DNA from: Siderastrea radians
Taxonomy: Eukaryota; Cnidaria; Anthozoa; Scleractinia; Rhizangiidae
Direction of reading: 5' to 3'
NCBI GenBank assembly: GCA_964017195.1
Contig: OZ024892.1
Location: 8,165,866 to 8,229,865, forward strand
Length of the DNA: 64,000 nt
The position numbers were made by a program, and so were the translations under genes. Each line of letters begins with the position of its first letter. Position 1 is the stretch's first letter. The notes under the pieces were generated by a model that was given only the letters and a program-made list of their open reading frames with translations, ran no database searches and was not told the DNA's origin. Shown here piece after piece: positions 5,215-64,000 of this stretch.

Positions 5215-5345
5215 CGATTATGCACCCAACTTTTCCGGTTGCGGAAAGAAAGCCTGAAAAATTTCAGGCATGTACGTTATTCGAACCCATGTCCTCTGCG
5301 ATACCGGTGCAGCACTCTAACCAACTGAGCTAACAAGCCAGCTGG
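5215..5345 (-). mobile_element. tRNA-derived SINE
   Basis: Read on the - strand, the segment has an RNA polymerase III box A (TAGCTCAGTTGG, at 5321-5332) and box B (GGGTTCGAA, around 5280-5288) spaced as in a tRNA. A short CCTGAAATTTTTCAGGCTTTC hairpin and a non-tRNA tail follow. The tRNA 3' acceptor pairing is degraded, so this is a SINE head and not a functional tRNA gene. It lies in the block missing from duplication copy 2. Confidence 0.65.
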
Positions 5346-7224: not shown

Positions 7225-7835
7225 TACAACAACAACAACAAGCTTTATTACCAAATAGAAAAGGAAAAAAAAGTTAAACTTTACAATTATAATTTTTTTT
7301 TAATATTAATACAAAAAAGAGGTAATGTTTACTCAGGATAACTATAAAGCTAATCGAGCTGAGTAAAACTAAGTAATGTTTAAGTACAGAAGGTAGGTTG
7401 GCACTAAAGCTTGGTGAAAGCAATTAATTAGTCAATAAAAAGAGACGAAAAGAAGAAATAAAGAAATAAATAAATAAATAAAAATAAATAAATAAAATAA
7501 ATAAACAAATACCAGTTGAAAACTCATGAACAGTGAGACTGTAAGATGTTTAGCTTGACTTTGTTTTTAAACGTATTAAGGGGGAGGTGTTTAATGGTTT
7601 CGTCAAGGTGATTCCAAACTTTTACAGCTGCAAAGCGAATGTTGAATTTACCATAGTTTGTTTTGATGGTATTGATGTAATAGGTCGATTAAGAAGCAAG
7701 CCTAGTATTGTATGAGTGTACATGTACAGATGCTACTGTTTGAAAGAAATTTTCAAAGGAAGATGGAAGAAGATTATAGTAATAGTGATACATGAGGAGT
7801 GCATTGTGAAGGGTAACAAGATCAGTTAAAACCCT
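7225..7835 (-). mobile_element. 5'-truncated LINE, C-terminal reverse-transcriptase ORF remnant
   Basis: On the - strand the translation NTRLAS-stop-STYYINTIKTNYGKFNIRF leads to a KVWNHLDETIKHLP stretch. That is the typical C-terminal end of non-LTR retrotransposon RT proteins (CR1/L2/jockey-like). An in-frame TAA breaks it. The 3' end is a short (TTG)n tail at 7229-7245, as expected for a LINE insertion. Copy 2 of the duplication lacks the whole block (around 51315), so it was probably inserted after duplication or removed from copy 2. Confidence 0.75.
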
Positions 7836-8444
7836 AAAAACTAAACCCGGTTACTAAAATGACCCCTATTTCCCAGAAGCAGTTTTCAACTTGTTTTTCT
7901 TCAATTCGTTATAACAGGAAGATATTTATTTTTTCAACAATATTGTCATACTGAAAATGTCGGACTTTTTGCAGATTTTTAGGATTGATAGGATTATAGA
8001 ACACGCGACCCCCTTTTGAGATTCCAAACAAGAAACGTAGCCGTTTAACTTGATATCAACTGAGTTCTTACTATATCGCTTAACCTTCGTCAAAGAGAAT
8101 TAAGGGAATTTGGGTTGTGTGTGGTAAATATCATAAATGAAAGGAGGAAGCGGTTACGCCCCGGGGGGGGTATTCTGGTATCTTAGGGAAGGGGAGGTAC
8201 GAATGAGACCAAATTATAAGGCCCATTCCCCCCCCCCCAGAAAAAAAGTGCCATTATGCTAAAAAGTCCTTTTCATCTACACTGGTCTTTACTAAAACAC
8301 TTGAACGTGTTGTGCAATAGAAACCCACTATTTCAGCAACCTGATCAGAGGCCACAACTTAACCAAAACCGGTTGGGATTGAAATGGTCGGTCTCAAAGC
8401 AGAACACGTCCACAGTACGTAAAATAAATGTTTTGTTTTTACAG

Positions 8445-8533
8445 GAAGTGGTTCGAGCCTGTCGACTCGCCTTGGAATACAGAATGAAATATAGAAAGGA
8501 TATCATAGTAGACATGCTGTGTTACAGAAGATG
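8445..8533 (+). CDS. DHTKD1: DHTKD1 exon a
   Basis: Follows a TTTTTACAG acceptor, encodes [20 protein letters not shown] and on to LCYRRW, and ends in phase 2 before GTATGT. It is identical over all 89 bases to the copy at 51946-52034. Confidence 0.93.
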
Positions 8534-11500: not shown

Positions 11501-11577
11501 ATGATGGCTCCGTTGTGCGAACAGATTACAAACTTGTTCAGTTTCAACTCCAGTACATATGTAATAGTAACTGGACT

Positions 11578-11618
<41 letters not shown>

Positions 11619-14600
11619 AAAATCGGCCGAGCGCGCAGCGCCTCGTTGGTTATAATCTATCACTCGATATCCAGCGCGCCCTCGTAGAATAATTGTTTTA
11701 AAATTATTATTCAACAAATTGTTACTATGCCCATATATGGTAAGGAAGCCCTCAATATCTGTCATCCGTACATGACAGATATCCTGCGATATACGTAAAT
11801 GACCATATTTGGAAGTGCGCTGCAGCTTTTCTTTCATTACTTGTCTGGCGGCCATTTTGAAAAGCGCGGCAGTTTGAGCAGTGTCCTCCGGAAATTTTAA
11901 CTCCCTGGAAGAAACTTTCCACGATTAAATGCTCTCAAAAAGTCAGGCCTACGGCCTCGTCGGCTAAGTATCAGGTGATATTCCGCGCGATTTCGCGGGA
12001 TAATTGTTAAGTATCACATGAGGGAGAAGATAAACTGTTCACAACCCAGTGCACTGTTTCAATCAAGGATTCAGCACCTCCCTGTTAGTACATGTATTTG
12101 TGGGTTTTTTTTGTTCAGATGGAGACTAACCCTGTAAAAGTGCATATTAGCATTTTTAGTCAGTGGTCTTAGTGATGTCGGACTATTTTCTGTTTGTCTC
12201 GAGTATCTTAGATACCGAATATAGACACTGAAGTTACAACCCAAAGTTGATTTGTTGATTTGCTGGTTGTAGGGGCGATAAATAAATATTTTTTTAGATG
12301 TACGACGTATTGTTAATAGATAATTATTTGTAATTAGTTTTTTAGGACAGTAGGTAGTTTTAGTAGTTTTAATCATTGTATATTTTATATTTTAGATCTG
12401 TGATATTTGTATTTCTTATTTTAGATTTTAATACTTTTTATTTTATGGAGGACCTCCCTGAAAACCACGTATTTACGTGACGGGCGCTTCCTCTTTAAAG
12501 ATTGTTTTTATTATTTATTATTTTTTATTAGGGGCCACAATGAGATTGACGATCCTTCATTCACTCAGCCAATAATGTACCAGCTGATCGAAAACAGAGC
12601 GAGTGTACCAGACAAGTACGTGGATACCTTAGTAAATAGAGGTGTGGTCACTCAGGAGGAGATAACTAAAGATACTGCTGATTACAGCGCAATTCTTAAT
12701 GACGAGTCAAAGCTGTCAGACAACGTTATTCCCCACACCACCCATCTGGAGGGGCATTGGAAAGGGCTGGTGCAGGCGAGTGAAGATAAAACTACCACTT
12801 GGGACACAGGTATGTACACAGGACACCCACCCTCACAACCTCGTCCCCAAGGCCTTCTCCTCGTTCAAAATGGCGGTCGGAGAAACCCCTGGTTAAGGCT
12901 GTTGATATACTCCAAGAATCGTGGAGTATTTTGTCACGTGATACATGATGAAATGGCTTTTTCGGAGGTTGTTTCCAGCGTCTGGCGGCCCTGTTTGTTT
13001 TCTGCAATCGGAAACCGTTGTTCAAACGAAACGAAGTCAATTCATTGCGTTTACGCGACGAAATTCTAAAGAATTTTTGGAGCCACTTTAGCAGTCTTGG
13101 TCAGGGGTTTCTCTGACCGCCATTTTGAACGAGGAGAAGGTCCTGGGGGCGAGGTTGCCACCCTCTCGTTTTGAGTTGTAGTCGCGTTTTACCGCCAACA
13201 ATCAGTTTATTGTCTCTGGTTGAAAAGGATATGTTTGTGCGATGCCATTGGTGGGTTTCAATCCCCTTTGTCAACATCAGCTGCTTTTCACGATCTGTTG
13301 GTTGTCACCGTAAATGTGATTTACGGCAGTAGGAAACGCGGTCCGTTATATAATTAGTGGGCCGAGTGTTTGCCTGTTATCGATTTAGAGGCACTGTAAA
13401 AAAAAGTTTGAGTCAAAACCCAGTAACTTAACCATACTACCTTTTGACACGTAAATAAAGTTGTTATTATTATTGTTACCAATGAAACTTTCCTCAAAAG
13501 TGAAAATTAGTGAAGTCTCTTTGTTGCGGCAATTTTGATTGAAAATTCATAATAGTTTTTAGTTAATCCAAAACTTGTATTTTGATGAGATCCGTGTAGC
13601 TTTATTTGCTAAGCTCCCAAAAATTGCGAGAACTGATGAAATTTGACTCGTCAATTGTAGGCTGAACTTGGAGTCGTATATTTCTGAGAAACATGTCCAG
13701 TGAAATTCACTAACAGCACTGAAACCCATTAAAGTGCACCTAACCCCAAAATATTTTTTACGCTAATATGAAACTTTGCACCTATTTTATAAACATTTCA
13801 CCATTATTTGCAGTTTTTTACTTTTTTACAGGCTTCAAAACTTACAAAAAACTAAGCACCATTTGTCGCAGGACCAAGTCAGAAGGGGCATGGATCTATT
13901 CTTGATTTGACATCACGAACTGCTTTGCATGCATATTTACAAAGACTTAAGGAGATGCAAATCAGTTTGTAATTTCAAATCAAGAATAGACCCATGCCCG
14001 TCACTAGCTCGGTCGTGTAACAGATAATGGCTAGATTTCGTAACTTACAGCCTATAAAAAGTCAAGACTGAGGGGGATTTCATAAAAAAAGGCGCAGTGC
14101 TTTTCGAATACGTACAAAGAGTTATTTTAACGAAAAAATATTTTGGGGTTAGGTGCACTTTAAATTTGGTTATCTATGGGTCAACTTGGAGCTTATTTCA
14201 AGGAACCCTTTTGCCCTTGTGTTCCACATCAAGTTGCTACTATCGATCCTCCTAAGAACTCGAACTGAAGTTAGTTTTCCTCGGATAATATTCCGGCTAC
14301 GTGCGGCGGGCTTTCGCTATCTCGAATATGCAGGGGAAACAATTGTTCCAGACAGCGAGTGATCGCGATATTAAATAAATGAACGATGTCAATCGAGGTA
14401 GCCGGGGTGGAGAGGAAATAGCCGGGGGGTAGCGGGGGGGGAATAGCGGGAGGGGAGGAAAATGGGGGGGCGGAGGAAAAAGCGGGCGGGGGAATTAGCG
14501 GGAGACTGGTGCACTTTACTGCTGGCCATCTCCAACTCCCAATGTCGAGCTGTTTTCCTTCAGCACAATTCTACTCCTACACGAAATGCGAAGTTTATCG

Positions 14601-49741: not shown

Positions 49742-50055
49742 CTTGTATGTGATCTTAAGAATATATATTTTTGTACCCTTTTTTCGCACTTTGGACGTCA
49801 TGTTACGGATGTTTCAACTCTTTTGTCGGACACATTTTTTTATCTAGAACTGTTTGTCAAATTTTGGCAAAACCCACCATGTTACGTGTAATTACATTTA
49901 TTTCGTGAACTTTGGCAAAACTTGTGATGCTGCTCCAGCTCACACGTTTTAAGTTCACGTTTAGAGAGTTTTCAACCGTTTTAGATTTTGGTTAGAATGT
50001 TGCCAGATAGTATGACAGCAAAATTATGTCTGAGAATTTTATTATTTATTTATTA

Positions 50056-50087
<32 letters not shown>

Positions 50088-51945
50088 TGTTTTTTTTTTA
50101 TTTGTTTTTTTTTTTGCATTCATTCAAACATTTGGAGCTGTTAAAGACAGAAGAGGGGTGTTTTTTTTTCAAACTTAAGCACGTGCAGAAAACAGACCAA
50201 GTCACATATCATCTAATTTCCCTTCACGGTTTTTGTGACCAAGGAGTGAAGAATACGGCGCTATTTTGGTCTTGCTTTCCAGATCATTTTCGACTTGAGT
50301 GAAACCGAGTTTTAAGATCTATTTACTTTTGGGAAACGCTAGCTGTTTTTACGATACGTTTACTTTTGTTCTTTACCTTAATAGGTTTTCGTAATCTTCA
50401 ATTGTTAAGCTTTCATAAAATATATAGTTCGTTAGGGCTTTTTTAAAACGCCCGGCGCAAAAATGGTAATAATTGTGTCGTTGTTATTTTGGGTACCCTT
50501 ATACCCTAAACCTATTGTATAATAACAGCGAGAACCGGGAATCTCTGGATGCCACTCGTCAATAATTATTAATCTTTTTACCAGTTGATCTAATTATAAG
50601 CTATACGAGAGATTTTGCGCTCAAGTTAGGTTATAGTTGACTTCAAAGACGTCGGCTTGGGTGTGGTTGACGGAAGGAATTCCTTGCCCATCCACGTTCC
50701 TTACTTAGACTGTTCTTCAAAGTACAACTAGAGCTACAACCTTAGCCTTGCTTCGCAACTGAGTTTAACATAGAAAGGGGTAGTACTGAATAGTAGCGAA
50801 GGGTTAAATGCTCTTGATATATGAGTTAAACCTGATCTTCTGTTTACGTTGTACTACTGAACTAGACAAAGCAATTTTTTGGTGGTGGTCGCGATATTTT
50901 GGTGTAACATTCGGGGGAAGGTGTCTGAAATCTTCATCATTATTTACAGTGTTTTCAAATCTGCCTACCTGTGTTGATCTCATGATCAGCACGATCAAGC
51001 CTACTAAATTTACAACGTGAACTAAACATGCAGATTTAGCACAATTCTTCAAGTGTGTCTAGAATTGCGAAACACCAATTGAAAATAACAAGAATTTCAC
51101 CTCGCAACATCCCCCTCGTTTAATCAGTACATGCATCTCGTGATGCATCTCCAATCATCAATGTAAACCAGTAAACAAAAAGAAGATTTTAGTAATACTG
51201 ATCGAAGTGACTACAGCTTCTATAAGGGTATCTACGAGAAAAAGATATCCTATTTCGTTCATATATTTCGCTGTCCAATAATGTATTTGATCTTCCTTTA
51301 AGCTGATGTTTTCGTTAATTAAAACGAAACCCAGTTACTAAAATGACCCCTATTCCCAGAAGCAGTTTTCAACTTGCTTTTCTTCAATTCGTTATAACAG
51401 GAAGATATTTATTTTTTCAGCAATATTGTCATACTGAAAATGTCGGACTTTTTGCAGATTTTTAGGATTGATAGGATTATAGAACACGCGACCCCCTTTT
51501 GAGATTCCAAACGAGAAACGTAGCCGTTTAACTTGATATCAACTGAGTTCTTAATATATCGCTTAACCTTCGTCAAAGTGAATTAAGGGAATTTGGGTTG
51601 TGTGTGGTAAATATCATAAATGAAAGGAGGAAGCGGTTACGCTCCGGGGGGGTACTCTGGTATATTAGGGAAGGGGAGGTACGAATGAGCCCAAATTATA
51701 AGGCCCATCCCCCCCCCCCCCCCCCAGAAAAAAGTGCCATTATGCTAAAAAGTCCTTTTTATCTGCACTGGTCTTTACTAAAACACTTGAACTTGTTGTG
51801 CAATAGAAACTCACTATTTCAGCAACCAAAAACAGTTTTAAAATAGTTCTACTTAAGAGGCCACAACTTAACCAAAACCGGTTGGGATTGAAATGGTCGG
51901 TCTCAAAACAGAACACGTCCACAGTATGTTGTTTTGTTTTTACAG

Positions 51946-52034
51946 GAAGTGGTTCGAGCCTGTCGACTCGCCTTGGAATACAGAATGAAATATAGAAAGG
52001 ATATCATAGTAGACATGCTGTGTTACAGAAGATG
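51946..52034 (+). pseudogene. DHTKD1: duplicated DHTKD1 exon a
   Basis: All 89 bases and both splice sites match 8445-8533. As a gene fragment isolated in the AQR region it has no upstream DHTKD1 exons here. AQR's preceding exon ends in phase 1 but this exon starts in phase 0, so inclusion in an AQR transcript would shift the frame. Confidence 0.85.
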
Positions 52035-53812
52035 GTATGTTTGTTTGGAAATCTTTTCTAACTTACTTTATGTTATTGGTAGGTATTTGAGCAATCTCGC
52101 AGTGTAAATTTGTCAGCTAAGCCTCATAAATCTACAGTGTATTGTGGACGTAAACATACGGCAAATGCGTAGTTTCCGCCATAATTTGCGAAGAAAAAAT
52201 TTCGCTTAAACCGCAAACATAACGCATTGTGAGTTCAAAATGGGGTAACTGAAGTCAGCAGTTCTACTGGGATATTTCTTGGATCGTTTTTAGACGACCT
52301 TCATGCTTATAAAAGTTTAAACTGATTTAGATTTTAAAGCTTTGAAAACCTGAAGTGACATTTTTTTGTTTTTCCGTGCAAAGGCGGAAACTGGAGCTTA
52401 GCGGCCGGTCGTAAACAATAGTCAAGTTTTGAGTTCACCAAGACCGTTGAATAACCCTTTAAGCCCTGATATAAAAATGCATATTCTCCTTCTTCATACG
52501 TTTCTTATGGAACTAGTAAGGAGAATATGTCTGTGTATCAAGACATCTTAGTCTTGGTGATCACTTCCTTTATTCTCATCACTTGAATGTTTGAACAAGT
52601 GTGAAAATGAAAAGAGAAATTTCATTTTCGTCACTGTTAGAGCTTAAAAGGAATAAACACACTTGTACAGTGTTTAGTCTCAATCTGAGACAGAATATTT
52701 GCAATTATTATTAAAAACTGGACTAGGTATATTGGATTTCTAGCATTTTGATTGGCTCAACGGAGCTAGGCTATCAGCTCATATACCTGCTGCGACCGAA
52801 TATGGTCAATGAACACTCAACAACAAAGTGAGCTGAAAGTTTTTTCCTCGCGAGCAACCCGGCGAGAAAAATGGATGAGAAAAATCACTTGCCAGCAAAT
52901 TTAAATTAAGCAGAAATTCCAACAGCGTCACCAACAAGCATCACCAACAGCGTCGTCTAACACAAGTCAAAATTGTTTGAAGAAACTGTGCAGAAATAGA
53001 AATTTAAGCATTAAGCGTTGCGTTTACAATTAATTTCTTTCATCGGTCGTCACGTCGATCATTGAAATTGAACAAACGGTAGGTTTTATCAGAAAGGATT
53101 TCCACTTCAAAATATCAAGACAAGACACAAAGTAAAACACAGTGAAATGGGGCAGGAGCATTTAATAAAAACTATCACACATTCGTGGCGAGTCGGTGCG
53201 AAATTCATGAAGCAGTCTAAACAAGTACTAAAAAAAATACAGCTGCAAACTACCAAGAAGGAAGGAAGGGCGAGATTGTTTTTCGGCTTTAACATGCAAA
53301 ATTGACACTGGCTTACCTGCACTTGTTGTAGCTCTGTGTTCCAACAGGTCCAAATGCTCAGATAGAAATCGGATGCCCTGTAAACGGAGTTGAATCGCTT
53401 TTCGAGTTGTTTGAATGTTGTTTTTACCATTCCGTCCGTAACCTCTAAACCGAGAACAACTGCATTTTGCGCTTTGCGTTTAACAAACTATGATGGTGAA
53501 TTCTAATGTTCCTTGCTACAGTAATCTTGCTTCTGAGCTGCATAGAAAATACCTCTTCAAGTTCAACTGTTCAAATTTGTTCAATCTGTCTTTAGTTCGA
53601 TCAAACACGCACATGATGGCTCCGTTGTGCGAACAGATTACAAACTTGTTCAGTTTCAAATCCAGTACATATGTAATAGTAATTGGACTGAGTGGAGTAC
53701 AATTCGGGGAGTAATCGGGCGAGTAATTTCAAAATCGGCCGAGCGCGCAGCGCCTCGTTGGTTATAATCTATCATTCGATATCCAGCGCGCCCTCGTAGA
53801 ATAATTGTTTTA

Positions 53813-53857
53813 GTATATGTAATCGCATGAGGCCGAGTAGAATTAAGGATAAATTTC

Positions 53858-53897
<40 letters not shown>

Positions 53898-54642
53898 CGC
53901 AGCGACGAGGGCACTTTGTGAAAACTTTGAAAATACAAGTGAAATTTATCCTTAATTCTACGAGGACTCAATGCGATTACTTGTTTATAACACAGAGGGC
54001 AAAATTTTCGGAAAACTTTCCATGCACGTTGAAACACAATCAGCCGGCCATCAGAATAATTATAAAAGTACCCGCTCGTAAACAATTCACCAAACAAGCA
54101 TTTTAACTGCTGCTCAGCGCACAGAACAAGATAGACTGACCATTATGTACATCTTAAGAGATAAATACAATTCTAGTTCATTGACAAAACACACTTATAA
54201 CTCAATTAACTAAGTAAATTTTATTCACCTGAGTTGCGAAGCTTCCTCTCGCATGAAAAACTATCGACCACGTCGCTGTAAGTTTTCAGTAGTTTTAAAA
54301 CAAATAACAATTTGCTGTTTCCCGTAACACATATAGGTTCACCTTTTCGAATTCCTCTTCAAGCAAACCCCCGATTTCCATACCATTTTTACCAACCTCG
54401 GTTAAAAGTCAAACTTTGAAGCGATCCTTGCCTTGAACAACTCAAAGTGCAATTTTCGTTTCAAGACGCCTACAAAATGCAAATGGCGCGCTCTCGCGCT
54501 CAGCCAATCAAATGCGAGTAATTTTTGCGCTTGGCCAATCACGAATTAGTATAAATTTTGCCCTCGTCCGAAAGAAAATTAAGAAAAAATGCCCTCTGTC
54601 TCAACCAATCAGCATTCAGTAATTTTGCCCTCTATGTTATAA
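53813..54642. mobile_element. 0.83-kb insertion unique to copy 2
   Basis: The inserted block begins with a 160-bp hairpin (GTAATCGCATGAGGCCGAGT at 53819 and its mirror ending GCGATTAC at 53980). It continues with a unit bounded by inverted ends TTATAACACAGAGGGCAAAATT (53985) and AATTTTGCCCTCTATGTTATAA (to 54642). Copy 1 is continuous at the matching point (about 11700). No transposase ORF. Confidence 0.8.
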
Positions 54643-55310
54643 AAATTATTATTCAACAAATTGTTACTATGCCCATATATGGTAAGGAAGCCCTCAATAT
54701 CTGTCATCCGTACATGACAGATATCCTGCGATATACGTAAATGACCATATTTGGAAGTGCGCTGCAGCTTTTCTTTCATTACTTGTCTGGCGGCCATTTT
54801 GAAAAGCGCGGCAGTTTGAGCAGTGTCCTCCGGAAATTTTAACTCCCTGGAAGAAACTTTTAGCGCTTTCATCATAGAACCATAGTTTTTCTTGTTCTGA
54901 AAATGGTAGTCGACGAGAATTTGTTGAATAATAAAACACTTATCCTGCTCAATCTTGTGGAATATCCCCTGATTTAGCCGACGAGGCCGTAGGCCTCGTC
55001 GGCTAAGTATCAGGTGATATTCCGCGCGATTTCGCGGGATAATTGTTAAGTATCACATGAGGGAGAAGATAAATTGTTCACAACCCAGTGCACTGTTTCA
55101 ATCAAGAATTCAGCACCTCCCTGTTAGTACATGTATTTGTGGGGTTTTTTGTTCAGATGGAGACTAACCCTGTAAAAGTGCATATTAGCATTTTTAGTCA
55201 GTGGTCTTAGTGATGTCGGACTATTTTCTGTTTGTCTTGAGTATCTTAGATACCGAATATAGACACTGAAGTTACAACCCAAAGCTGATTTGTTGATTTG
55301 CTGGTTGTAG

Positions 55311-55588
55311 GGGCCACAATGAGATTGACGATCCTTCATTCACTCAGCCAATAATGTACCAGCTGATCGAAAACAGAGCGAGTGTACCAGACAAGTACGT
55401 GGATACCTTAGTAAATAGAGGTGTGGTCACTCAGGAGGAGATAACTAAAGATACTGCTGATTACAACGCAATTCTTAATGACGAGTCAAAGCTGTCAGAC
55501 AACGTTATTCCCCACACCACCCATCTGGAGGGGCATTGGAAAGGGCTGGTGCAGGGGAGTGAAGATAAAACTACCACTTGGGACACAG
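55311..55588 (+). pseudogene. DHTKD1: duplicated DHTKD1 exon b
   Basis: Open frame and splice sites are kept (acceptor GGTTGTAG, donor GTTTGT). Only two base differences from 12532-12809, both replacing an amino acid. No matching exon c follows before the virus-like element. Confidence 0.85.
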
Positions 55589-55708
55589 GTTTGTACACAG
55601 GACACCCACCCTCACAACCTCGTCCCCAGGGCCTTCTCCTCGTTCAAAATGGCGGTCGGAGAAACCCTGGCCAAGGCTGCTAAAATACTCCAAGAATCGT
55701 GGAGTATG

Positions 55709-55960
55709 AGTAGTAAAGGACGCCCATATGGAGACGTTTGCCTCGTTTTGATGTAAGAATGACGTCATAACCGGAACCGGAAATCACGTGGTTTTAGAAG
55801 GGGAAACCGCTGACCAGTGGATAAAAAGGATCGTGGGCTCATACAACCGGAAGTCACGTGATTTAGAAGGAGAAACCGCTGGCGAGTGTGAAAAAAGGAT
55901 CGTGGGCTCAAGGTGGATGAAAACCGCGGAGAAAACGCGGGCTCAAAGTCCAAAGTCCAT
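55709..55960. promoter_or_regulatory. left terminal region with two 65-bp direct repeats, E-box and CRE sites
   Basis: Units at 55777-55841 and 55847-55910 both run from CCGGAA(A/G)TCACGTG through GAAACCGCTG to GGATCGTGGGCTCA. Each has a palindromic CACGTG (55785, 55855). A TGACGTCA palindrome is at 55760-55767. This should be all or part of the terminal inverted repeat, but the matching right end is outside the window. The regulatory role is inferred. Confidence 0.6.
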
Positions 55961-56011
55961 TTTTTGGAACGGGGGTGACCGGAAAACAAGACAAAATGAA
56001 TAAATTACATT

Positions 56012-56017
56012 TTTATT
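56012..56017 (-). terminator. poly(A) signal for the polymerase gene
   Basis: AATAAA on the - strand, about 245 bp beyond the polymerase stop codon and before the terminal repeats. Confidence 0.6.
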
Positions 56018-56261
56018 GATTTTTACAATAACTGTGGTTTTCCTGAGTGTTCCTTAATGTTCAATAGAGGGTCCCCACCATTGTTTTTGACATCGAGTTA
56101 TTCTTCGCCATTGATTGTTGTCACGGATCCATTGTTGTAGTGGACGTCGATGATTTCTCATCAAAGGTATGGCAAAGGAACTGTAGAATGGGGGTGGTGG
56201 TGGTGGCGCCAAATGTTCTCGATCACAGTGATCACAATCGACGATCTTGTTTTTGGATCTC

Positions 56262-59200
56262 TCACTGGTAGCCATAGGGGTAGGTCTTGAAGGTGCGGGG
56301 ATCGATGACTCTTTTGTCATACACCAAGCGATACCATTTGTGTTGGGGTTGAGTGAGCAAGGTGTAGTTTGTTGGGTTGCGAACAATTTGGTGGGAGTTT
56401 ATCACCTGGATTTCCCGTGGTTTGGTAAGGGGTTTCTGGATTTCATCTTGGACATTCTGTCGCATGATGTTGTAATTTAGCTGGGTGTGTCCTTCGCTGT
56501 TGAGTCGGAAGCCTCTGACCTTGCATTCCACCTTTTCGTTATTCGTAGCATAGCCATAGTTCTTGGGTCCTCCGCTGACGAATTCTTGGATGTATTCATC
56601 ATCAGCTAATTCGGAGGTGAAGTCCCCTAGATAGGAACCCAAGGTAGGTTGGAATTGAGTGGGTGTTTCCTCCAGGTAGATGACGGAGTCGGTGTCAAAG
56701 TAGAGGACTCTTTCCCCTAAGGCTTCCAGGGCGGCATAGAGTTTGAGCCGGGCGTGGCAGGTGGTGAAGCAGGCCACAAAAATGTTGAGGTTGGGTGAAA
56801 CGCGGATGTCCTCTTTTTGGTTTTGGTAGTGCACCTCGACCATGTCGTCATTAATGACGGACACGTGACGTACATCTAAGGCATCGGTATCCAAGAAATC
56901 GTGGAAGGCCTGTGGATCATGAAAGGCTTGAATTTGGGTCTTGTTGAGGCGTTGTCCAAACTTGCCCCACATGGAGTTGAGCATGAGTTTTGTTAGGGTT
57001 CGCAGCCCCGGGTTGTATACGATCTTGTCGTATTCCAACTGGATGCCTTCATGCTCGAAGTACTTCTGGATGTAGTCCTGTTTGGCTTGCTCTGACATGT
57101 CGTCCTTAGGCCACCCACTGGCTTCTTGTTTGATTTTGAGCCAGGTGTTGACATAATCGGCAAAGAGGCCCTCACAGGTTTCTTCAAAATGCCAGGCTTC
57201 ATAGATGTATTGGACTTGGTATCCCAATTCGACGGCTTTGACTAATTCGGGGCTGCACCAGGTACTGGTGAGGGTGCGTTGTTCGTCGGGGTGAGGGCAA
57301 TGATAGGATCTGTCCAAAAGAGGTTTGTCCATTTCTTCTTCCACACAACGGGCACAGAGGGGAAAGAGCAGTTTGTCGCCATGACGGTAAGGCAGCACGG
57401 GATGGTACAATTCACGGGGAGGCAGGATTTTGCATTGGATGAGACCAAAGTACTGGTGGATGTCCGTGTGACCCGGTTGATAATAGATGGTGGGATGTCC
57501 TTTGGGGTACACAGACTTCTTGTTGACCCACGGGTACAAGGAGGTGACATCGATGTAGTGAATTTTTTGGCCGGGGGTGATATGATGGTAGAGTTTGATG
57601 GCATTGGTACGACCTCCACAGAAAGCCTCTCGAGGTTCAAGAGGATCGATAAAGTTGAGTTCCCGGACGAAGGCGTCGATCTCTGGTTGGGTGTCTCGGA
57701 GGTGGTCCCATTCACATCCCCACATTTGAATGACGTTGTACCCTTGGTCGGTAAGCTTTTGGACTTTGTCTTGGGTGGCGTCATAGACGTCCTGCATCGT
57801 CAGATCATAGTTGCGGGGATGTTTTTCGTAGCGATGGGGAAAACAGGTCGGGCATCCGTGGGTGAAACAGCCTTGAAATTCGTAGACGGTGTGGGTGTGG
57901 GGGCAATAACCATCCACATGCAAGTTGGTCCCGGGGATCTTATACTCGCCTTCATTTCGGACATGTTGGATGTACTGAGGCTCTGGATTGGCACTGGCCA
58001 GTAGATCGTCGGGGTTGAGATCTTGGAGGGCGCGTTGACGTAGTTGGTGATCGCACCAGGTTAACCATTGAAGGGCTGGGATGGACTGGTTGATGTTATT
58101 TCTCCATCCCTTAGGACCGGCGGGTTCGCTGGCAATACTGTTGGGGATCATCCGGTTCATACGTAAATCTCGATTACAAGCCGAGGCAATGGTGACGTGA
58201 TCGAAGGGATTGAAGCCGGTCAAGTCTTCAAACAGGCGTTTGAAAGTCAGACATCCTTGTTTCAAGAGACGTACATCCGATTGACAATAGGCGACCAATT
58301 CTTTCTGAAAGTCAAACACGACGTTCTTGGCACGCTGCTCTTGATGCCAGGTTTCGAAGGCTTGTCTTCCTTCGAGTGACATGGTCTCAGGCATGTAGTA
58401 ATCGCGTGAGGGGAGGATGCCCACGTAGTGTTGATGCTTAGATATGTTGAACTTGTGGGGGAAATAGCCTTTGCAGAGTTCGGTCAAGCCAAAGGTTTTG
58501 GGAAACGCGGAGAGGGGCATCTGGAAGAAACTCATCGAATCGATGAACCGGATGCGGTCATGTTTGATCTCTAAGAGTTTACACCCGTTGCGGAGTTGTT
58601 GGACGAGGCGGTTGTCCCCATAGTATTCTTGGATGATGAAGTACCCGTCGTACCCCTGGAAGTTATGGGCGATGACATTGACTTGACGGGTATCGTGGAG
58701 GGTCAAGGTATCCAGCCATTCCAGAAAGTCCCGGATACAAGTGGGACCTGGGAAAGGCTTGGGTTCATCGTTGTCTTCGGTTTCGGCCACGACGAGATTG
58801 GCAATGTGTTTTTCCTGGGGTTGCATGGCTTCGATATCAAAGAAGACGTGTAAGGGAGGCAGGTCTTCCTCGTCCTCGGAGGAGGCATGGGGTTCCGCGG
58901 CGGCACCTCGTTTGGCGCGAGGACCTTTTTGACGGGTCCTCTTTCTCTTCTTTTGGTCTTGAGGTTTGGGGGCTCTTTGTATAAAACAACGGTGGTTGTC
59001 GGCGTGGACGTACTGATGACAAGAAGGGCAATCCACGTGGAAACAAAGGTGACGTTGAATGCGGGACAAGCCCACATTTTGTTGATAACAGTCAGGGCAT
59101 CGGTATCGTTGAGAGCACACGGAGGTCTGGAGGCCCGTGACGGGTTTGCCCGCATGGGTCTTGCTGGCATGGGCTTCCAAACACGCGGGTCCAAAAAAGT

Positions 59201-60431
59201 CCCGATGACACGACTCGCAACGTTGAGTGGCTTTCAGGTGTCGGGGGTACGCATATTGAAAGTCGGGGCAATCTTTCTGTCGACAGGCTCCACACAACTT
59301 GGTCTTGGTGCATCGATGCTTCCCCTCGGTGTCATAGGGTTTCCAACAATCCGCACAGACATAACTGGACCCGAAAAATCCCGGCAATTTGGTGATGACA
59401 TCATAATGGTCTTGGTTGTGCAACAGGATCAGTTGTTTGTCAGAAAGGGGTCCAAACGTCGTGATGTGGAACGATCGCTGTGCATCCACCAGGAGGATCT
59501 GGTAACCCGTGAGGGAGGGAGCTTGACTGAATTGGGTCAAGGCATCATACCCACATGGACCGAAGGATGAAGAAGTGAAGTGATGAAGTAAGAGAGCCAT
59601 TTCTTTTTGGAGGGGTCTTCCTTTTCGAATCGAATGCCATTTCGGGTGCTGGTCCACGCGAGCTTTGGCGGTGACAAGGGCTCTGGCGCAACAGAGCTCA
59701 TCATCATCATTTTGGATGCGGATGACCGACCGTTTGTTGGTTGTCAACATGGTCATGGTGGGATGACCGGGTTTCCGACGACGGGGTTTGCCGGTGCCTT
59801 GAGGAGCATGATGAACTTGCGTAATGGACACTTGAAAGGAATCGTCCATTTCAAATTGTTCGTTGCTGTTGAGGGCTTGGGCTAAACGTTGGAACAGGGC
59901 TTCCACCCGTTCTGTGTCTCGACGCCATTCACCCGCACGTAATCCCCACCCCTGAAAATTATTGTGCAGGCGATCGGATGCTATGGTAAAGTACAGACGA
60001 TCTTGATCGTGGAGGTCGGGGGTGGTGGTTAACACTTGATCGACGGCTCGACGTAATCCGTCTTGGAGAGCTTGGGTTATATTTTGACCTGGAAGCAAGT
60101 TCCCCCTTTGACGTAACTGGGTCTTGAAATGACGTTCTTGTAACCCCATGCGATCACTCTTCCGATTCACAAAAGGTTCTAAGTCAAATTGGAAGGTAAC
60201 GTGTTCAGAGGGATCCAATCCACCCCCACTTTGTTCCCATTGGTCCAAGGCCTCTTCACAAATGGCGTCGTCACTGTCCGTCATGTTTTCGAGGCAAATC
60301 AAAGGTCCCCCACAGGAATGTGGTGTCTCTTCTTCTGGCTCTGAATCGGACATCTCTAGTCCAAGCAAGGAGATGATATCATCGTGGCTAAGGCCGCTTG
60401 GCCCCGCCACATCGTCTTCGTGAGAGGACAT
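56262..60431 (-). CDS. polB: protein-primed family B DNA polymerase (Polinton/adintovirus type)
   Basis: Replicates the element by protein priming (family knowledge). The open frame runs from 60509 (1,415 codons); numbers here use that frame. Order: acidic Ser/Glu-rich N terminus (to about 100); a Cys/His cluster of several CxxC pairs (385-508), probably zinc-binding; a basic linker (518-535); 3'-5' exonuclease motifs FFDIEA (Asp558, Glu560), NFQGYDGYF (Asp621) and YCQSDVRLL (Tyr741, Asp745). Next is a VDGY...YEFQGCFTHGC segment (865-886) resembling an endonuclease-like insert known in related polymerases. Then come polymerase motif A DVTSLYP (987-993), motif B KLMLNSMWGKFG (1174-1185) and motif C YFDTDS (1270-1275). 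All catalytic acids are present, so the enzyme looks intact. I place the start at Met27 (60431) because a TATA box (60466-60473) lies inside the longer frame. It is divergent from the 60660 gene. Confidence 0.93.
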   Translation of the reverse strand: MSSHEDDVAGPSGLSHDDIISLLGLEMSDSEPEEETPHSCGGPLICLENMTDSDDAICEEALDQWEQSGGGLDPSEHVTFQFDLEPFVNRKSDRMGLQERHFKTQLRQRGNLLPGQNITQALQDGLRRAVDQVLTTTPDLHDQDRLYFTIASDRLHNNFQGWGLRAGEWRRDTERVEALFQRLAQALNSNEQFEMDDSFQVSITQVHHAPQGTGKPRRRKPGHPTMTMLTTNKRSVIRIQNDDDELCCARALVTAKARVDQHPKWHSIRKGRPLQKEMALLLHHFTSSSFGPCGYDALTQFSQAPSLTGYQILLVDAQRSFHITTFGPLSDKQLILLHNQDHYDVITKLPGFFGSSYVCADCWKPYDTEGKHRCTKTKLCGACRQKDCPDFQYAYPRHLKATQRCESCHRDFFGPACLEAHASKTHAGKPVTGLQTSVCSQRYRCPDCYQQNVGLSRIQRHLCFHVDCPSCHQYVHADNHRCFIQRAPKPQDQKKRKRTRQKGPRAKRGAAAEPHASSEDEEDLPPLHVFFDIEAMQPQEKHIANLVVAETEDNDEPKPFPGPTCIRDFLEWLDTLTLHDTRQVNVIAHNFQGYDGYFIIQEYYGDNRLVQQLRNGCKLLEIKHDRIRFIDSMSFFQMPLSAFPKTFGLTELCKGYFPHKFNISKHQHYVGILPSRDYYMPETMSLEGRQAFETWHQEQRAKNVVFDFQKELVAYCQSDVRLLKQGCLTFKRLFEDLTGFNPFDHVTIASACNRDLRMNRMIPNSIASEPAGPKGWRNNINQSIPALQWLTWCDHQLRQRALQDLNPDDLLASANPEPQYIQHVRNEGEYKIPGTNLHVDGYCPHTHTVYEFQGCFTHGCPTCFPHRYEKHPRNYDLTMQDVYDATQDKVQKLTDQGYNVIQMWGCEWDHLRDTQPEIDAFVRELNFIDPLEPREAFCGGRTNAIKLYHHITPGQKIHYIDVTSLYPWVNKKSVYPKGHPTIYYQPGHTDIHQYFGLIQCKILPPRELYHPVLPYRHGDKLLFPLCARCVEEEMDKPLLDRSYHCPHPDEQRTLTSTWCSPELVKAVELGYQVQYIYEAWHFEETCEGLFADYVNTWLKIKQEASGWPKDDMSEQAKQDYIQKYFEHEGIQLEYDKIVYNPGLRTLTKLMLNSMWGKFGQRLNKTQIQAFHDPQAFHDFLDTDALDVRHVSVINDDMVEVHYQNQKEDIRVSPNLNIFVACFTTCHARLKLYAALEALGERVLYFDTDSVIYLEETPTQFQPTLGSYLGDFTSELADDEYIQEFVSGGPKNYGYATNNEKVECKVRGFRLNSEGHTQLNYNIMRQNVQDEIQKPLTKPREIQVINSHQIVRNPTNYTLLTQPQHKWYRLVYDKRVIDPRTFKTYPYGYQ

Positions 60432-60659
60432 GATCAGATGAACTCCGCTGGCGATCGGGGCTCTGTTTTTATAGAGAAAAAAAGGGTCACGTGAAGAAGA
60501 AGCAGCCAATCACAAGCAGTCCCCCCCGGGGCCTCTGGGAGGGGTGGGACGGGGGTGGGGGGACCCCCCTCCCCCCTCTCTAGTTGGGACCCATGGGGCA
60601 TCACGGGAACGAATAAACCGCTATAAAAGAAATCGAATCGTCGGCGGAGTCATCTCAAA
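60432..60659. promoter_or_regulatory. bidirectional promoter between polymerase and small-gene block
   Basis: TATAAAAA on the - strand (60466-60473) lies about 40 bp before the Met27 codon of the polymerase. TATAAAA on the + strand (60622-60628) lies 38 bp before the ATG at 60660. A CACGTG (60488-60493), shared with the terminal repeats, and a G/C-run block (60515-60575) that could form G-quadruplexes lie between. Both mRNAs would have very short leaders. Confidence 0.65.
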
Positions 60660-61097
60660 ATGGAGGTTGATCAAGACAAGCTGTTGGAAGCCTTTGAAAC
60701 GTTTGAAGCGGATTTAGAAGTGGATGAGATTTTGAAGAAAGTCAAGAAGGAGTTGGCGCTGGACTCAAGTGTCACAGAGTTTGGGGAGAAGCTCAAGCAA
60801 AGGGAGCAGCTCAAAGAGGCAGCTCAGGCAACCCGGGCAGCACGAGCCGCCTACTTCCACCCCCTCTGCTACCCTCAACACACCTGCGACTGGTTTATCG
60901 AGGGGTTGGACTATTGCTGCTCGTATTGGCGCTACCAATTCAAAAGGCCAGATACCCCTCCACCAGTACCGCCACCCTCTCCCGATGTGTGCCGCAAGAG
61001 AATTGCGTCCCCGCAGAGCCCCCTACAAGGGCCAAGAAAGTGCTGCCGAACCCAAACAGACAGCTCTCCAAAGAGCCCGGCGTCGGGGGGAAACTGA
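60660..61097 (+). CDS. 145-aa Cys-containing early-type protein, unknown
   Basis: First gene after the + strand TATA box. The N-terminal half is an acidic then Lys-rich helix (FEADLEVDEILKKVKKELAL). The middle is Cys/aromatic-rich (FHPLCYPQHTCDWFIEGLDY, then CCSYW). The tail is Pro/Ser-rich with a CRKR basic patch. I do not recognise a family. Promoter-proximal divergent placement suggests an early regulatory role (inference). No LxCxE pocket-protein motif is present. Its 3' two-thirds overlap the 302-codon frame at 60769. Confidence 0.6.
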   Translation: MEVDQDKLLEAFETFEADLEVDEILKKVKKELALDSSVTEFGEKLKQREQLKEAAQATRAARAAYFHPLCYPQHTCDWFIEGLDYCCSYWRYQFKRPDTPPPVPPPSPDVCRKRIASPQSPLQGPRKCCRTQTDSSPKSPASGGN

Positions 61098-61677
61098 CAG
61101 GTGCTACCAGCCCCCGCATCGCCCCCTGCGCCCCAGGTCGACCCAAAGAGAGTTGCGCCCCCGCAGAGCCCCCGTCACGTACCACGAAAGCGATGATGAC
61201 GAACGACCACCCCCCCCCCCCCGACCGGGGCCAAGAGCCCGGCGGGCGGCGGCCGACAGGCGTCGCCAGGCAACGCGTCGACCCCCGCGGCCGGAGTCCG
61301 ACAGGCGTTACCGAGCAAAACACCGAGAGCGCATATTGGAGACCGACAAGCGTTACAGAGAACGACATCGAGAGCGCATAAGGGAGAAAGACAGGCGGTA
61401 CTTTCAAGCCAATCAAGAACGGATCCTGGCGCGTCAGCAACGATATCGGGAGGCCCATCGGGAGGCGGTGAGGGAGACACAGCGACGATATCGAGAGAGC
61501 CGTCGAGAGGAGGCGAGGGAGAAACAGCGACGATATCGAGAGAGTCGTCGAGAGGAGTTGAGGGAGCAAGAGAGGCAGCGTTATGCCCGTTATCGGGAGG
61601 CCCATCCCGAGCTGGTGAGGGAACAAAACAGGATTCGTCAACCCGTTTTCGGGCGAAAAAGAGAATGGAGAAGTTGA
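60769..61677 (+). CDS. Arg-rich repeat protein (RYRE repeats), overlapping frame
   Basis: An open frame of 302 codons in another frame from the 145-aa gene. The first 70 or so residues look like a shadow of that gene, so the real N terminus is probably downstream or joined by splicing. From about residue 75 the content is specific: ELRPRRAP occurs twice in frame, then a Pro/Arg linker. About seven 16-18 residue units of the type RRYRERHRERIREKDRRY follow (about 173-290), predicted as highly basic helices. Similar Arg/Glu heptad-like repeats occur in viral and phage proteins of unknown role; nucleic-acid binding is plausible. It ends 13 bp inside the next gene. Confidence 0.6.
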   Translation: MSQSLGRSSSKGSSSKRQLRQPGQHEPPTSTPSATLNTPATGLSRGWTIAARIGATNSKGQIPLHQYRHPLPMCAARELRPRRAPYKGQESAAEPKQTALQRARRRGETDRCYQPPHRPLRPRSTQRELRPRRAPVTYHESDDDERPPPPPRPGPRARRAAADRRRQATRRPPRPESDRRYRAKHRERILETDKRYRERHRERIREKDRRYFQANQERILARQQRYREAHREAVRETQRRYRESRREEAREKQRRYRESRREELREQERQRYARYREAHPELVREQNRIRQPVFGRKREWRS

Positions 61678-62099
61678 TGACGTTAACCATCCCCCTGACG
61701 GATTGTCGGATGCCTGTGACGGACTATGTCCAAACCTTTTGTGACTCGCTGGACTCTGTGGATACCCCGCTCCCGGAATCGCAGGACTCTGTGGATACCC
61801 CGCTCCCGGAATCGCAGGACTCTGTGGATACCCCGCTCCCGGAATCGCAGGACTCTGTGGATACCCCGCTCCCGGAATCCTTTCTTCAACTCCTTGAGGA
61901 GGACGGGCCTACGCGCCTTGATTCGGGAACTATGCAAGGCGGTGAACCCTCTGACTTGGATGACCTTTCATTTTTGTCGGATTTATTGTCACCCGACGAT
62001 GTGCAGGATTTTGATGTGGAGGCTTTCGTTGCTGATTGGTTGGAGGACATGACGTCATCCGACGAGGGTGTCGATTTGATGTATGATTTAGTGTCTTAA
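61665..62099 (+). CDS. 144-aa acidic repeat protein, activation-domain-like
   Basis: Starts within the end of the Arg-rich frame (13-bp overlap). The N terminus is short. Four direct copies of an 11-residue unit (DSVDTPLPESQ) follow, encoded by 33-bp DNA repeats (61752-61880). The C terminus is strongly acidic with hydrophobic spacing (SDLDDLSFLSDLLSPDD, then VEAFVADWLEDM), a pattern like acidic transactivation domains. No enzyme motif and no recognised family. The repeat number is likely to vary between copies of the element. Confidence 0.6.
   Translation: MEKLMTLTIPLTDCRMPVTDYVQTFCDSLDSVDTPLPESQDSVDTPLPESQDSVDTPLPESQDSVDTPLPESFLQLLEEDGPTRLDSGTMQGGEPSDLDDLSFLSDLLSPDDVQDFDVEAFVADWLEDMTSSDEGVDLMYDLVS
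61752..61880. repeat. 33-bp direct repeat, four units, within the acidic protein gene
   Basis: GACTCTGTGGATACCCCGCT begins each unit at 61752, 61785, 61818 and 61851 with almost no variation. A multiple of three, so the frame is kept. Confidence 0.95.
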
Positions 62100-62103
62100 C
62101 CCT

Positions 62104-62188
62104 CGTTTCCGTCATTTGACAGAACATGCAATCGTTTCCGTATTTGACAGAACATGCAATCGTTTCCGTATTTGGCAGAACATGCCAT
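62104..62188. repeat. three 28-29-bp direct repeats between convergent gene blocks
   Basis: CGTTTCCGTATTTGACAGAA with CATGCAAT occurs three times with small changes. It lies right after the + strand stop codon (62099). It may be a terminator, spacer or replication-related iteron; nothing decides between these. Confidence 0.9.
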
Positions 62189-62239
62189 CGTGACATTGTG
62201 GTAGAACGATCAAAGAGACAGTGTTTGACATTTTCATTT

Positions 62240-62245
62240 TTTATT
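62240..62245 (-). terminator. poly(A) signal for the - strand late-type block
   Basis: AATAAA on the - strand about 40 bp past the PLA2 gene stop codon. An ATTAAA on the + strand at about 62274 could serve the convergent block. Confidence 0.55.
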
Positions 62246-62284
62246 GACACAACATGTAACTGGGGGTGTCATTATTAAAGTGTT

Positions 62285-62647
62285 TTACAATTTTAAACGT
62301 TTCTTGGCTTGCATGATTTTCTTGACCACCCGTTCCGTCTTGGTTTTCTTGCCGGGTAATTTATCAATGGCTTGGATCATCTTGGTATCGGCTTTCCATT
62401 TATCTTGCAAATTCTTGGCACGGCTGTAATCAATGTCGTGTTGTTTCGCAATCCGGTCCAAGCGATTGATCCCGGGATCCCCACGTTTTAGACGTTTGGC
62501 TAAATGCGTCCCAGGGCCCATGTATTGATAGCCAGGCCAATGAAATTCTTTGCCGGTTTTAGCAATCCATTTTTGGACATCCAAGGCCCCTCCGCGTTGA
62601 CGGCGTTTCACACCCCTTCTCCTCCTCCTCTTGGTACGGGGGGCCAT
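62285..62647 (-). CDS. parvovirus-type phospholipase A2 domain protein, 120 aa
   Basis: The N terminus is a run of Arg/Lys. It is followed by RQRGGALD and a compact PLA2-like core: calcium-loop motif YMGPGT (42-47) and active-site helix RIAKQHDIDY with His70-Asp71 and Tyr74. This is the GPG plus HDxxY pattern of parvovirus VP1 and related virion PLA2 domains, which act on membranes during entry (family knowledge). The tail is basic. RQRGG-A resembles a Gly-Gly cleavage site for an adenain-type protease and is repeated in the 56-aa peptide at 63795. The start lies 3 bp after the stop of the 214-aa gene. Key residues are present. Confidence 0.85.
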   Translation of the reverse strand: MAPRTKRRRRRGVKRRQRGGALDVQKWIAKTGKEFHWPGYQYMGPGTHLAKRLKRGDPGINRLDRIAKQHDIDYSRAKNLQDKWKADTKMIQAIDKLPGKKTKTERVVKKIMQAKKRLKL

Positions 62648-62650
62648 CTT

Positions 62651-63295
62651 TTAGTCCGTGTCGTAATCCAATCGACGTCGTAACTTTTTGCCTTGGTGCC
62701 AATCTTCCCACCCGGGTAAGGGTTTTAATGCTTGCACTTCACGGGAGACGCCTTTGCCTTTGCCTTTGCCTTTACGACTCTCGGCTAACTTTTTTTCCAA
62801 GGCCTTGCGCTGTTCTCGAATGGCTTCTAAACGCGACCGGCTATCCCCTCGACTGGTGGAAGGGCTCCCTTTCTTGACAATCTTACTGGTGGTGGCGGCT
62901 GCTCCTTTGCCTTTCTTGGTAGCAGGGGTAATGGGTGGTTTGGGCGTCGACGGGCTGCCTTTTATCATGCGCTTCAACCATTGTTCCACGGGTCCGGTCA
63001 CCAAATCCCCGGCCTCTTCTTCTTCGTCTTCGCCTGGTGGACCACCCGGGGCACCCACTCCTACGCCTCCGGGAAATTGACGAATGCGTTTGGTTAACTT
63101 GGTTAATTCTTGACTCAACGGTTTGGTTTGAGCATTGACCAGGGCCGGGGGCAATTGGGGGTTGGCCAACAAGACATGTTTTTGGGCGGCGAGCGTCGCG
63201 GCTTTGTTCAACAAGGCATTTTCGGTGAGTTCTCCTTTGTAATATTGAACGAGTTGTTCCAAGTCCTTGTGGGGAATCATGTAGACCTCGTCCAT
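62651..63295 (-). CDS. 214-aa virion-associated-type protein, unknown
   Basis: Helical N terminus (HKDLEQLVQYYKGELTENAL), a Gly/Pro linker (QFPGGVGVGAPGGPPG), an acidic run (EDEEEEAGDLV) with WLKRMIKG, then a Lys/Arg/Ser-rich disordered half ending with a basic helix and LRRRLDYDTD. No enzyme motif. Its position between PLA2 and the small basic genes suggests a structural or scaffold protein of the virion block (inference). Confidence 0.7.
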   Translation of the reverse strand: MDEVYMIPHKDLEQLVQYYKGELTENALLNKAATLAAQKHVLLANPQLPPALVNAQTKPLSQELTKLTKRIRQFPGGVGVGAPGGPPGEDEEEEAGDLVTGPVEQWLKRMIKGSPSTPKPPITPATKKGKGAAATTSKIVKKGSPSTSRGDSRSRLEAIREQRKALEKKLAESRKGKGKGKGVSREVQALKPLPGWEDWHQGKKLRRRLDYDTD

Positions 63296-63486
63296 GGGGG
63301 TTGACTACACTCGGAGCAAAGTTCCCCGTCTTCTATCTGACGACAGCTCTCACAAAGACGGGCCTTTAAGATGTGCTATTTATGCTTCCAATAATGACAC
63401 TCGTCTTTCCACTGGTCGGTAGTCCGATTGGCCTCTTGTAACAGGGTGATCCATGTGGCCAGGGTTAACGGGTCGGTCGAGCACAT
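63277..63486 (-). pseudogene. small Zn-ribbon-like ORF interrupted by an in-frame TAG
   Basis: On the - strand an ATG at 63484-63486 opens 36 codons (CSTDPLTLATWITLLQEANR, then a Trp/Lys-rich end) and stops at TAG (63376-63378). The same frame continues 32 more codons with CESC and CSEC pairs 12 residues apart, then TGA at 63277-63279. The intact second half in the same phase suggests one small zinc-binding protein of about 69 residues broken by a stop, or suppressed or spliced around. It overlaps the end of the 108-aa gene and the start of the 214-aa gene. Confidence 0.5.
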
Positions 63487-63791
63487 TGACATAACACCTC
63501 GTGAAGTCCTTGAAACAAGCCGCGTCCTTTTTGTTGAACCAACCACGCACGCCGTTTTTTGACGGAATGTCGACGACGTCCCAAATCGCGTAGCACCCTT
63601 TTATAGGGTTGAAGTTTAGCCAGCATGGGGGGTGTAACGGGAATCTTGTTTTTTAAGAAGTTCAAGACCAGTTCACTCACAGCATTGATTTGATCGGCAT
63701 TGGCATGTTGTAACAACTCTTGACGTTTGGAACCGTTGGCTTCTTGTAACATGGACCGTAAAAACGGTAATTGACGTCGAAGACGTTGCAT
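63465..63791 (-). CDS. 108-aa basic helical protein of the virion block
   Basis: Pattern: LRRQLPFLRSMLQEANGSKR, a helix with LVLNFLKNKIPVTP, then LQPYKRVLRDLGRRR, a Lys/Arg patch and LVQQKGRGLFQGL. Small proteins of this layout (basic, hydrophobic helix, basic patch, QxG(R)G-like site) recur in Polinton/adintovirus-like elements in marine invertebrates, as I recall the family. The function is not established. KGRG-L may be a protease site. Starts 3 bp after the stop of the 56-aa gene. Confidence 0.7.
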   Translation of the reverse strand: MQRLRRQLPFLRSMLQEANGSKRQELLQHANADQINAVSELVLNFLKNKIPVTPPMLAKLQPYKRVLRDLGRRRHSVKKRRAWLVQQKGRGLFQGLHEVLCQCARPTR

Positions 63792-63794
63792 CGT

Positions 63795-63965
63795 TTATCG
63801 GTGACGGCGACGATAGCGTTGATTGGCTTTTTGGATCGTGCGTTTTATACGTTTATCCGTTTCCAAGGCCACGGCTTTCCCTAATCCTACCATGGCAGGG
63901 ACCAATAGATTTAAAAAACCACCTCGTTGACGACGTCGTCGTCGTAATCTTCTTCTCCTCACCAT
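63795..63965 (-). CDS. 56-aa Arg-rich peptide, adenovirus pX/core-like
   Basis: Translated by hand from the - strand: an Arg-dense start, RQRGGFLN, a hydrophobic helix (LLVPAMVGLGKAVAL), then a basic tail ending in YRRRHR. This Arg-rich, Gly-Gly, hydrophobic-helix layout is like small condensing or membrane-active virion peptides such as adenovirus pX. The similarity is of layout only. The ATG at 63963-63965 overlaps the end of the upstream frame. Tight spacing and the shared RQRGG motif with the PLA2 protein support it as real. Confidence 0.65.
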   Translation of the reverse strand: MVRRRRLRRRRRQRGGFLNLLVPAMVGLGKAVALETDKRIKRTIQKANQRYRRRHR

Positions 63966-64000
63966 GGACGGTTCGTCAATAGACGTTGAAGGACTTTGTT
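63959..64000 (-). CDS. C-terminal end of the next upstream virion-block gene (partial)
   Basis: The - strand frame entering from the right edge reads NKVLQRLLTNRPW then TGA (63959-63961), overlapping the 56-aa gene's ATG by a few bases, as in the rest of this packed block. Too short to identify. Confidence 0.4.
   Translation of the reverse strand, partial: NKVLQRLLTNRPW

Follow-up and report, generated by a model that had tools for sequence, protein, structure and literature searches.

An integrated Polinton/Maverick-type element with SLOG-like and SLATT-like genes in the genome of the coral Siderastrea radians

The 64,000-bp stretch of Siderastrea radians DNA analysed here (the window; C6:8165866-8229865, on contig C6 of an 804.8-Mb assembly) contains the left part of a large element that is very probably a Polinton/Maverick (adintovirus-type) virus, a double-stranded DNA (dsDNA) virus in integrated form. 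Positions 55709..64000 of the window hold 8.3 of its 21.6 kb, and the remainder lies at C6:8229866-8243133. Structurally the element belongs to a known kind and is well preserved. What sets it apart is the accessory set, which includes a DprA-like SLOG protein and a predicted SLATT protein.

Boundaries and integration site

The left end is defined by two copies of a host segment. Host copies 1 and 2 are 97.5% identical across 401 bp and diverge after window positions 12929 and 55707, respectively, in line with the first-pass annotation, which proposed a Polinton/adintovirus-like element with its left end fixed by an empty site in the window. The inverted counterpart of the left end is found on the minus strand of the same contig, ~21 kb away (C6:8242868-8243133, 99% identity). 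The bounds of the element are therefore C6:8221574-8243133 (21,560 bp), and its right end is 13.3 kb beyond the window end. The left junction reads ...GGAGTATG|AGTAGTAAAGG... and the right junction reads ...CCTTTACTACT|AGTATG TTGTCACGTGACACATG. AGTATG flanks the element at both ends (left target-site duplication, 6 bp, 55703..55708, plus strand, from junction comparison) and the element starts with AGTAGTA, in agreement with the AG start and AGTATG duplication proposed earlier. The right-flank host DNA corresponds to window position 12931 onward with one base changed in the 17 quoted, and once one AGTATG is removed, the joined host flanks are 96.7% identical to the empty copy over 1,069 bp. 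Junction comparison places the empty target, AGTATT, at 12925..12930 (plus strand); against AGTATG in the occupied copy this is a single difference between paralogs, and the empty site belongs to a paralog of the gene segment and is not an allele. The first-pass annotation had tied its reading to an inverted left end downstream and to a right flank matching the empty copy. Both are found, so the reading stands.

The left terminal inverted repeat (TIR; 55709..55974, plus strand) is 266 bp long and 99.25% identical to its partner at the right end, with 2 mismatches. Repeat comparison reveals two 69-bp units within it (55775..55910, plus strand), and additional diverged copies of these units occur at the right end of the element (L009), towards the interior. 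A DHTKD1-like host exon lies to the left of the insertion (55354..55590, plus strand; PDB match to a solved DHTKD1 protein, E 6.8e-12). The exon is followed by GT, and the element probably sits in the intron behind it.

Core genes

The element combines several features by which Polintons/Mavericks are recognized, an AG-starting TIR, a 6-bp duplication, a family B DNA polymerase (PolB) and a retroviral-type integrase. PolB (56262..60509, minus strand; 1,415 aa, no stop) matches PF03175 with E 6.7e-43. The 375-aa integrase (L103:159-1286) matches rve with E 1.4e-12 and 48.2 bits (cut-off 32.6), and its C-terminal end, a putative chromodomain, gives Chromo E 5.9e-5 and 23.4 bits, below the cut-off of 25.1. 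Capsid, ATPase, protease and integrase genes had been predicted to the right of position 64000 and are found there, the first three as candidates assigned by weak profile scores plus gene place. The ATPase-like gene (L029:2007-2660) gives Pox_A32 E 6.9e-4 and AAA_16 E 5.6e-4, and the protease-like gene (C5 type; L029:2819-3358) gives Peptidase_C5 E 0.0037, all below cut-offs; in both cases the gene place fits. The capsid-like open reading frame (ORF) encodes 466 aa (L102:61-1461). Three related proteins of ~350 aa (L030:1348-3455 and L002:115-1185) we take to be putatively penton-like, in keeping with their gene place. PEN1 and PEN2 share 40% identity, PEN1 and PEN3 share 22% (E 5e-7), and these two pairs are clearly related. 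A GRF-zinc protein (E 6.6e-6) is encoded beyond the window. The N-terminus of PolB may resemble the OTU-like domain of adintovirus polymerases; the family search gave no OTU profile match in PolB, the N-terminal 836 residues had no match in phage records, and PolB had no match in the PDB.

Sister elements and age

The TIR search of the genome returned 42 rows, and both ends were compared for ten elements of 21.6-23.1 kb, a set that leaves out at least two further likely end pairs among these rows. All ten show the exact 6-bp duplication and the AGTAGTA start, so the shared design of the ends exceeds chance. The TIR difference within an element has a median of 0.75% (mean 1.4%, range 0-4.5%), while that between elements averages 11.6% (range 4.2-16.3%), and in 10/10 elements the own two ends are mutually nearest. 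The ends of such elements are identical at the time of insertion; if this holds here, most insertions are young relative to the divergence of their lineages. The first-pass annotation had suggested that the element may be young or still active, with frames nearly all intact. Its youth is borne out by the 2 of 266 TIR bases that differ and by the many similar insertions, and the genes read do have open frames. Present activity is conjectural.

The SLOG probe yields 1,307 first-look candidates in the genome and the SLATT-like probe 2,176, and the best 150 of each were scored. The two lists have 29 elements in common and together touch at least 271 places on 22 contigs. Copy number rests on these two best-150 lists plus a rough capture-recapture, which, if the lists are independent draws, gives ~776 elements that would make up about 2% of the genome (near 17 Mb). 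In three corals, no other classifiable repeat is reported to be as abundant as Mavericks, which account for 5.20%, 6.74% and 1.41% of the respective genomes (PMC11370458), so abundance by itself is not new.

SLOG protein and selection before insertion

The SLOG protein (240 aa) matches PHROG 768 (DprA-like) with E 8.8e-11. With an E threshold of 10, tblastn against phage finds 71 records; the best (E 9e-22) is 32% identical and covers 80% of the query. The protein is 33, 31, 26 and 31% identical to four phage proteins and shares motifs with them. Invariant in this alignment are GGAxGxD, RN, GGTxW and a GxR strand late in the sequence, and the order of the motifs suggests a circularly permuted SLOG. 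The Pfam matches to DNA_processg_A (E 0.0033) and cpYpsA (E 0.092) are below cut-off, and PADLOC gives only a weak ShosA match (E 0.01). PDB matches are at chance level, and the single match in plasmid records (E 5) is meaningless. Homology and nucleotide-site motifs point to a DprA-like SLOG member. It may bind or break an NAD/ADP-ribose-type nucleotide of the host response, a tentative function that we rate somewhat below even. SLOG domains in viruses were known only from caudoviruses and nucleocytoplasmic large DNA viruses (NCLDVs) at the time of one survey (PMC9503650), and our literature search, which reached few subscription papers, turned up no Polinton SLOG among the matches listed.

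Selection was measured as uncorrected proportions of nonsynonymous (pN) and synonymous (pS) differences, with three copies lacking the first 8-10 residues. In nine of the ten elements picked by TIR ends, SLOG has pS 0.164, pN 0.0155 and pN/pS 0.094; SLOG of the tenth is present in the score-ranked list and has no stop. Across all 36 copies fetched, 32 of them drawn from the score-ranked best-150 list, pN/pS is 0.081 and none has a stop. The ratios of the top 20 (SLOG 0.027, SLATT 0.043) carry a bias, because these copies were picked for their protein score, and we do not rely on them. Constraint on SLOG, the gene measured in this way, thus acted before insertion. Taken with the TIR differences within and between elements, this indicates that most divergence predates insertion and accumulated under constraint.

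SLATT protein

The second accessory protein is a two-transmembrane (2TM) protein of 223 aa with hydrophobic stretches near residues 51-69 and 72-90. Its match to SLATT_1 has E 5.3e-4 and 20.5 bits in Pfam, short of the cut-off of 26.3, and E 8.7e-5 in NCBIfam, again below the curated cut-off; these scores count against the assignment. In the genome-wide SLATT_1 profile search, 150 of 820 candidates were scored and at least 64 are above cut-off, with a top score of 40.6 bits. One of 14 control genomes also gives a match, below cut-off. The best SLATT_1 locus by itself (L104) reaches E 4.3e-10 and 40.1 bits, and is 52% identical to the 2TM protein of the element over 159 residues. Profile match and two-transmembrane hairpin together make the protein a predicted SLATT member. 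Exosortase_EpsH also matches the 2TM protein (E 0.001), which we read as membrane-segment resemblance, because in L104 the SLATT_1 score rises and the EpsH score does not. The 2TM protein gives chance-level matches only in the PDB and nothing in PADLOC, and neither it nor L104 finds anything in PHROGs. The chances are about equal that the protein would form a membrane pore in entry or exit and that it would not. Several top SLATT_1 places lie at C2:30.6-34.5 Mb, and others on C10 and C25, which suggests further or nested Polinton lineages.

A second Polinton lineage

A second, deeply diverged Polinton lineage exists in the same genome, in which SLOG-, SLATT-, ATPase-, protease-, capsid- and GRF-like genes recur. 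Upstream of L104 are the C-terminal half of a capsid-like protein (73%), an ATPase (72%) and a protease (46%). SLATT has therefore been conserved in this genome in no fewer than two lineages of Polintons. The second lineage also carries a pair of stretches resembling SLOG (31% and 33%), next to a pair resembling GRF (41% and 29%). GGAxGxD is absent from the aligned portion of both SLOG stretches, one of which retains GGTGW. This lineage keeps the SLOG gene, perhaps with an altered site, and that argues against a single enzyme under strict conservation. A protein kinase ORF (L112:3-686; Pkinase E 3e-40) adjoins these stretches.

Discussion

The two accessory genes possibly act jointly, which we put forward as a hypothesis. 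In its fullest form, an integrating virus of animals would have acquired the two components of a nucleotide-signalling conflict system of bacterial type, a signal-sensing or signal-destroying SLOG and a signal-gated SLATT pore. Despite deep divergence it would have kept the two together, as a switch for counter-defence or host killing in coral. We consider this unlikely. The alternative of unrelated accessories, with SLATT as an entry pore like that in cryptophyte Polinton-like viruses (PLVs) and SLOG as a DprA-like DNA-handling protein, is evenly balanced between true and false. In all 29 pairs the SLOG and SLATT genes are on opposite strands and 9.8-11.6 kb apart, neither adjacent nor fused as they are in the bacterial SLOG-SLATT conflict system; the top-scoring relatives of SLOG are phage proteins that carry a DprA-like annotation, and endosomal-escape pores have been proposed for SLATT (PMC12220804). 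However, SLOG and SLATT are retained together in two deeply diverged lineages, and the escape hypothesis drew on absent lipases (PMC12220804), whereas this element encodes a 120-aa phospholipase A2-like (PLA2) protein (62285..62647, minus strand; PF08398 E 3.4e-11).

For the element as a whole, we propose a viral life cycle. Its own polymerase, for which we infer protein priming, would copy a linear genome with identical ends, the capsid proteins would package this genome, and the retroviral-type integrase would insert it by a 6-bp staggered cut. A DHTKD1-like gene is duplicated here, and this copy of the element inserted behind an exon in one of the duplicates. The copies would have arisen via functional, probably particle-forming, rounds. 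Several points weigh against a virus. Every copy known here is integrated, and scans of viral contigs, with a reach of close relatives, gave no free relative with PolB and only three pattern stretches with SLOG, none encoding a relative. The selection data cover SLOG, Capsid_N matches only an N-terminal piece of the capsid-like ORF (E 0.026) and nothing matches the whole ORF, and the open frames of PolB, capsid and integrase are those of this copy alone. The SLOG and SLATT-like rows, each 149/150 stop-free, are biased toward intact copies because they are the best 150 by score. The integrated state of all copies, the negative scans for a free relative and the limit of the selection data to SLOG would suit a large transposon that multiplies in the genome via its own polymerase and integrase, carries the capsid-like genes as passengers and makes no particles. 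We regard such a transposon as improbable, since this copy has open capsid-like, protease, ATPase and PLA2 frames, the second lineage keeps capsid and ATPase well, and vertebrate Mavericks show purifying selection on all core genes, morphogenesis genes included (PMC8097293).

The absence of the first motif from the matched stretch of both second-lineage SLOG copies, with GGTGW kept in one, could also mean that SLOG is on its way to losing its role and survives as a remnant with a structural or regulatory part. This is quite improbable given the low pN/pS of SLOG in nine first-lineage elements and the intact motifs in that lineage. No sign of an assembly artefact or chimera was seen, and one is extremely unlikely given the exact duplication, the matching paralogous empty site and nine more elements of the same design.

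Like the Polintons/Mavericks of vertebrates, the element has a family B polymerase, an integrase, an ATPase-like gene, a capsid-like set, TIRs, 6-bp duplications and purifying selection, here on SLOG; unlike them as described, it has SLOG, SLATT and PLA2 (PMC8097293). That study counted, among 17 species, 134 elements in which seven or eight genes are intact, with a maximum of 38 per genome, as compared with the at least 271 places touched here by two single-gene probes, which is a looser measure. By description, the element also resembles adintoviruses in its adenovirus-like gene set, its rve integrase with a chromodomain-like end and its coral host (PMC11071296, PMC11071308); a Stylophora coral adintovirus is named in the latter. 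SLOG and SLATT have 0 occurrences in the available text of both papers. Cnidarian capsid genes have been placed outside the main animal Maverick cluster (PMC10120064).

SLATT has been found in 868 cryptophyte PLVs and was reported in PLVs earlier too, and pore-based escape has been suggested for PLVs that have no lipases (PMC12220804). The coral element is like these in its SLATT gene, in belonging to an integrated dsDNA virus group and in its many copies. It differs in that PLA2, SLATT and SLOG are in one animal element, whereas the cryptophyte PLVs have algal hosts, lipases reported absent and, in the available text, 0 occurrences of SLOG (PMC12220804). This combination bears on the printed idea of SLATT pores replacing lipases. 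TIR-SLATT neighbours have been described in phages (PMC9503650), and the present findings place domains of bacterial and phage conflict systems in an animal virus. It is still debated whether Polintons behave as viruses or as transposons. With its many similar, datable insertions, this coral genome allows selection before and after insertion to be measured gene by gene.

Other features of the element and the host locus

An accessory ORF of 145 aa (60660..61097, plus strand) is overlapped in another frame by an Arg-rich repeat ORF of 302 aa (60769..61677, plus strand), both with no credible family match. These are followed by an acidic ORF of 144 aa (61665..62099, plus strand) with four 33-bp repeats at 61746-61879. 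The repeats (99% matches) encode SQDSVDTPLPE units, whose number may vary among elements. On the minus strand, a 214-aa ORF (62651..63295) matches no family and a 108-aa ORF (63465..63791) has weak family matches only. A basic core-like ORF (63795..63998, minus strand) continues past the window and matches Adeno_PX with E 0.0069, below cut-off.

In the host, a self-complementary repeat (12836..13157; 68.6% self-inverse match), which the first-pass annotation took for a MITE, surrounds the empty site. The host segment with the DHTKD1-like exon is duplicated at window positions 4592-12929 and 49744-55707 plus the right flank, ~43-45 kb apart. Its copies are ~93-100% identical in pieces, and insertions tell them apart. 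In keeping with a stony-coral host, GFP-like exons give 68 matches in the genome, all but two of them clustered on two contigs (C4:13.76-14.0 Mb and C1:59.6-60.1 Mb), and the best PDB matches of one such exon are the stony-coral proteins Azami-Green and then Dronpa.

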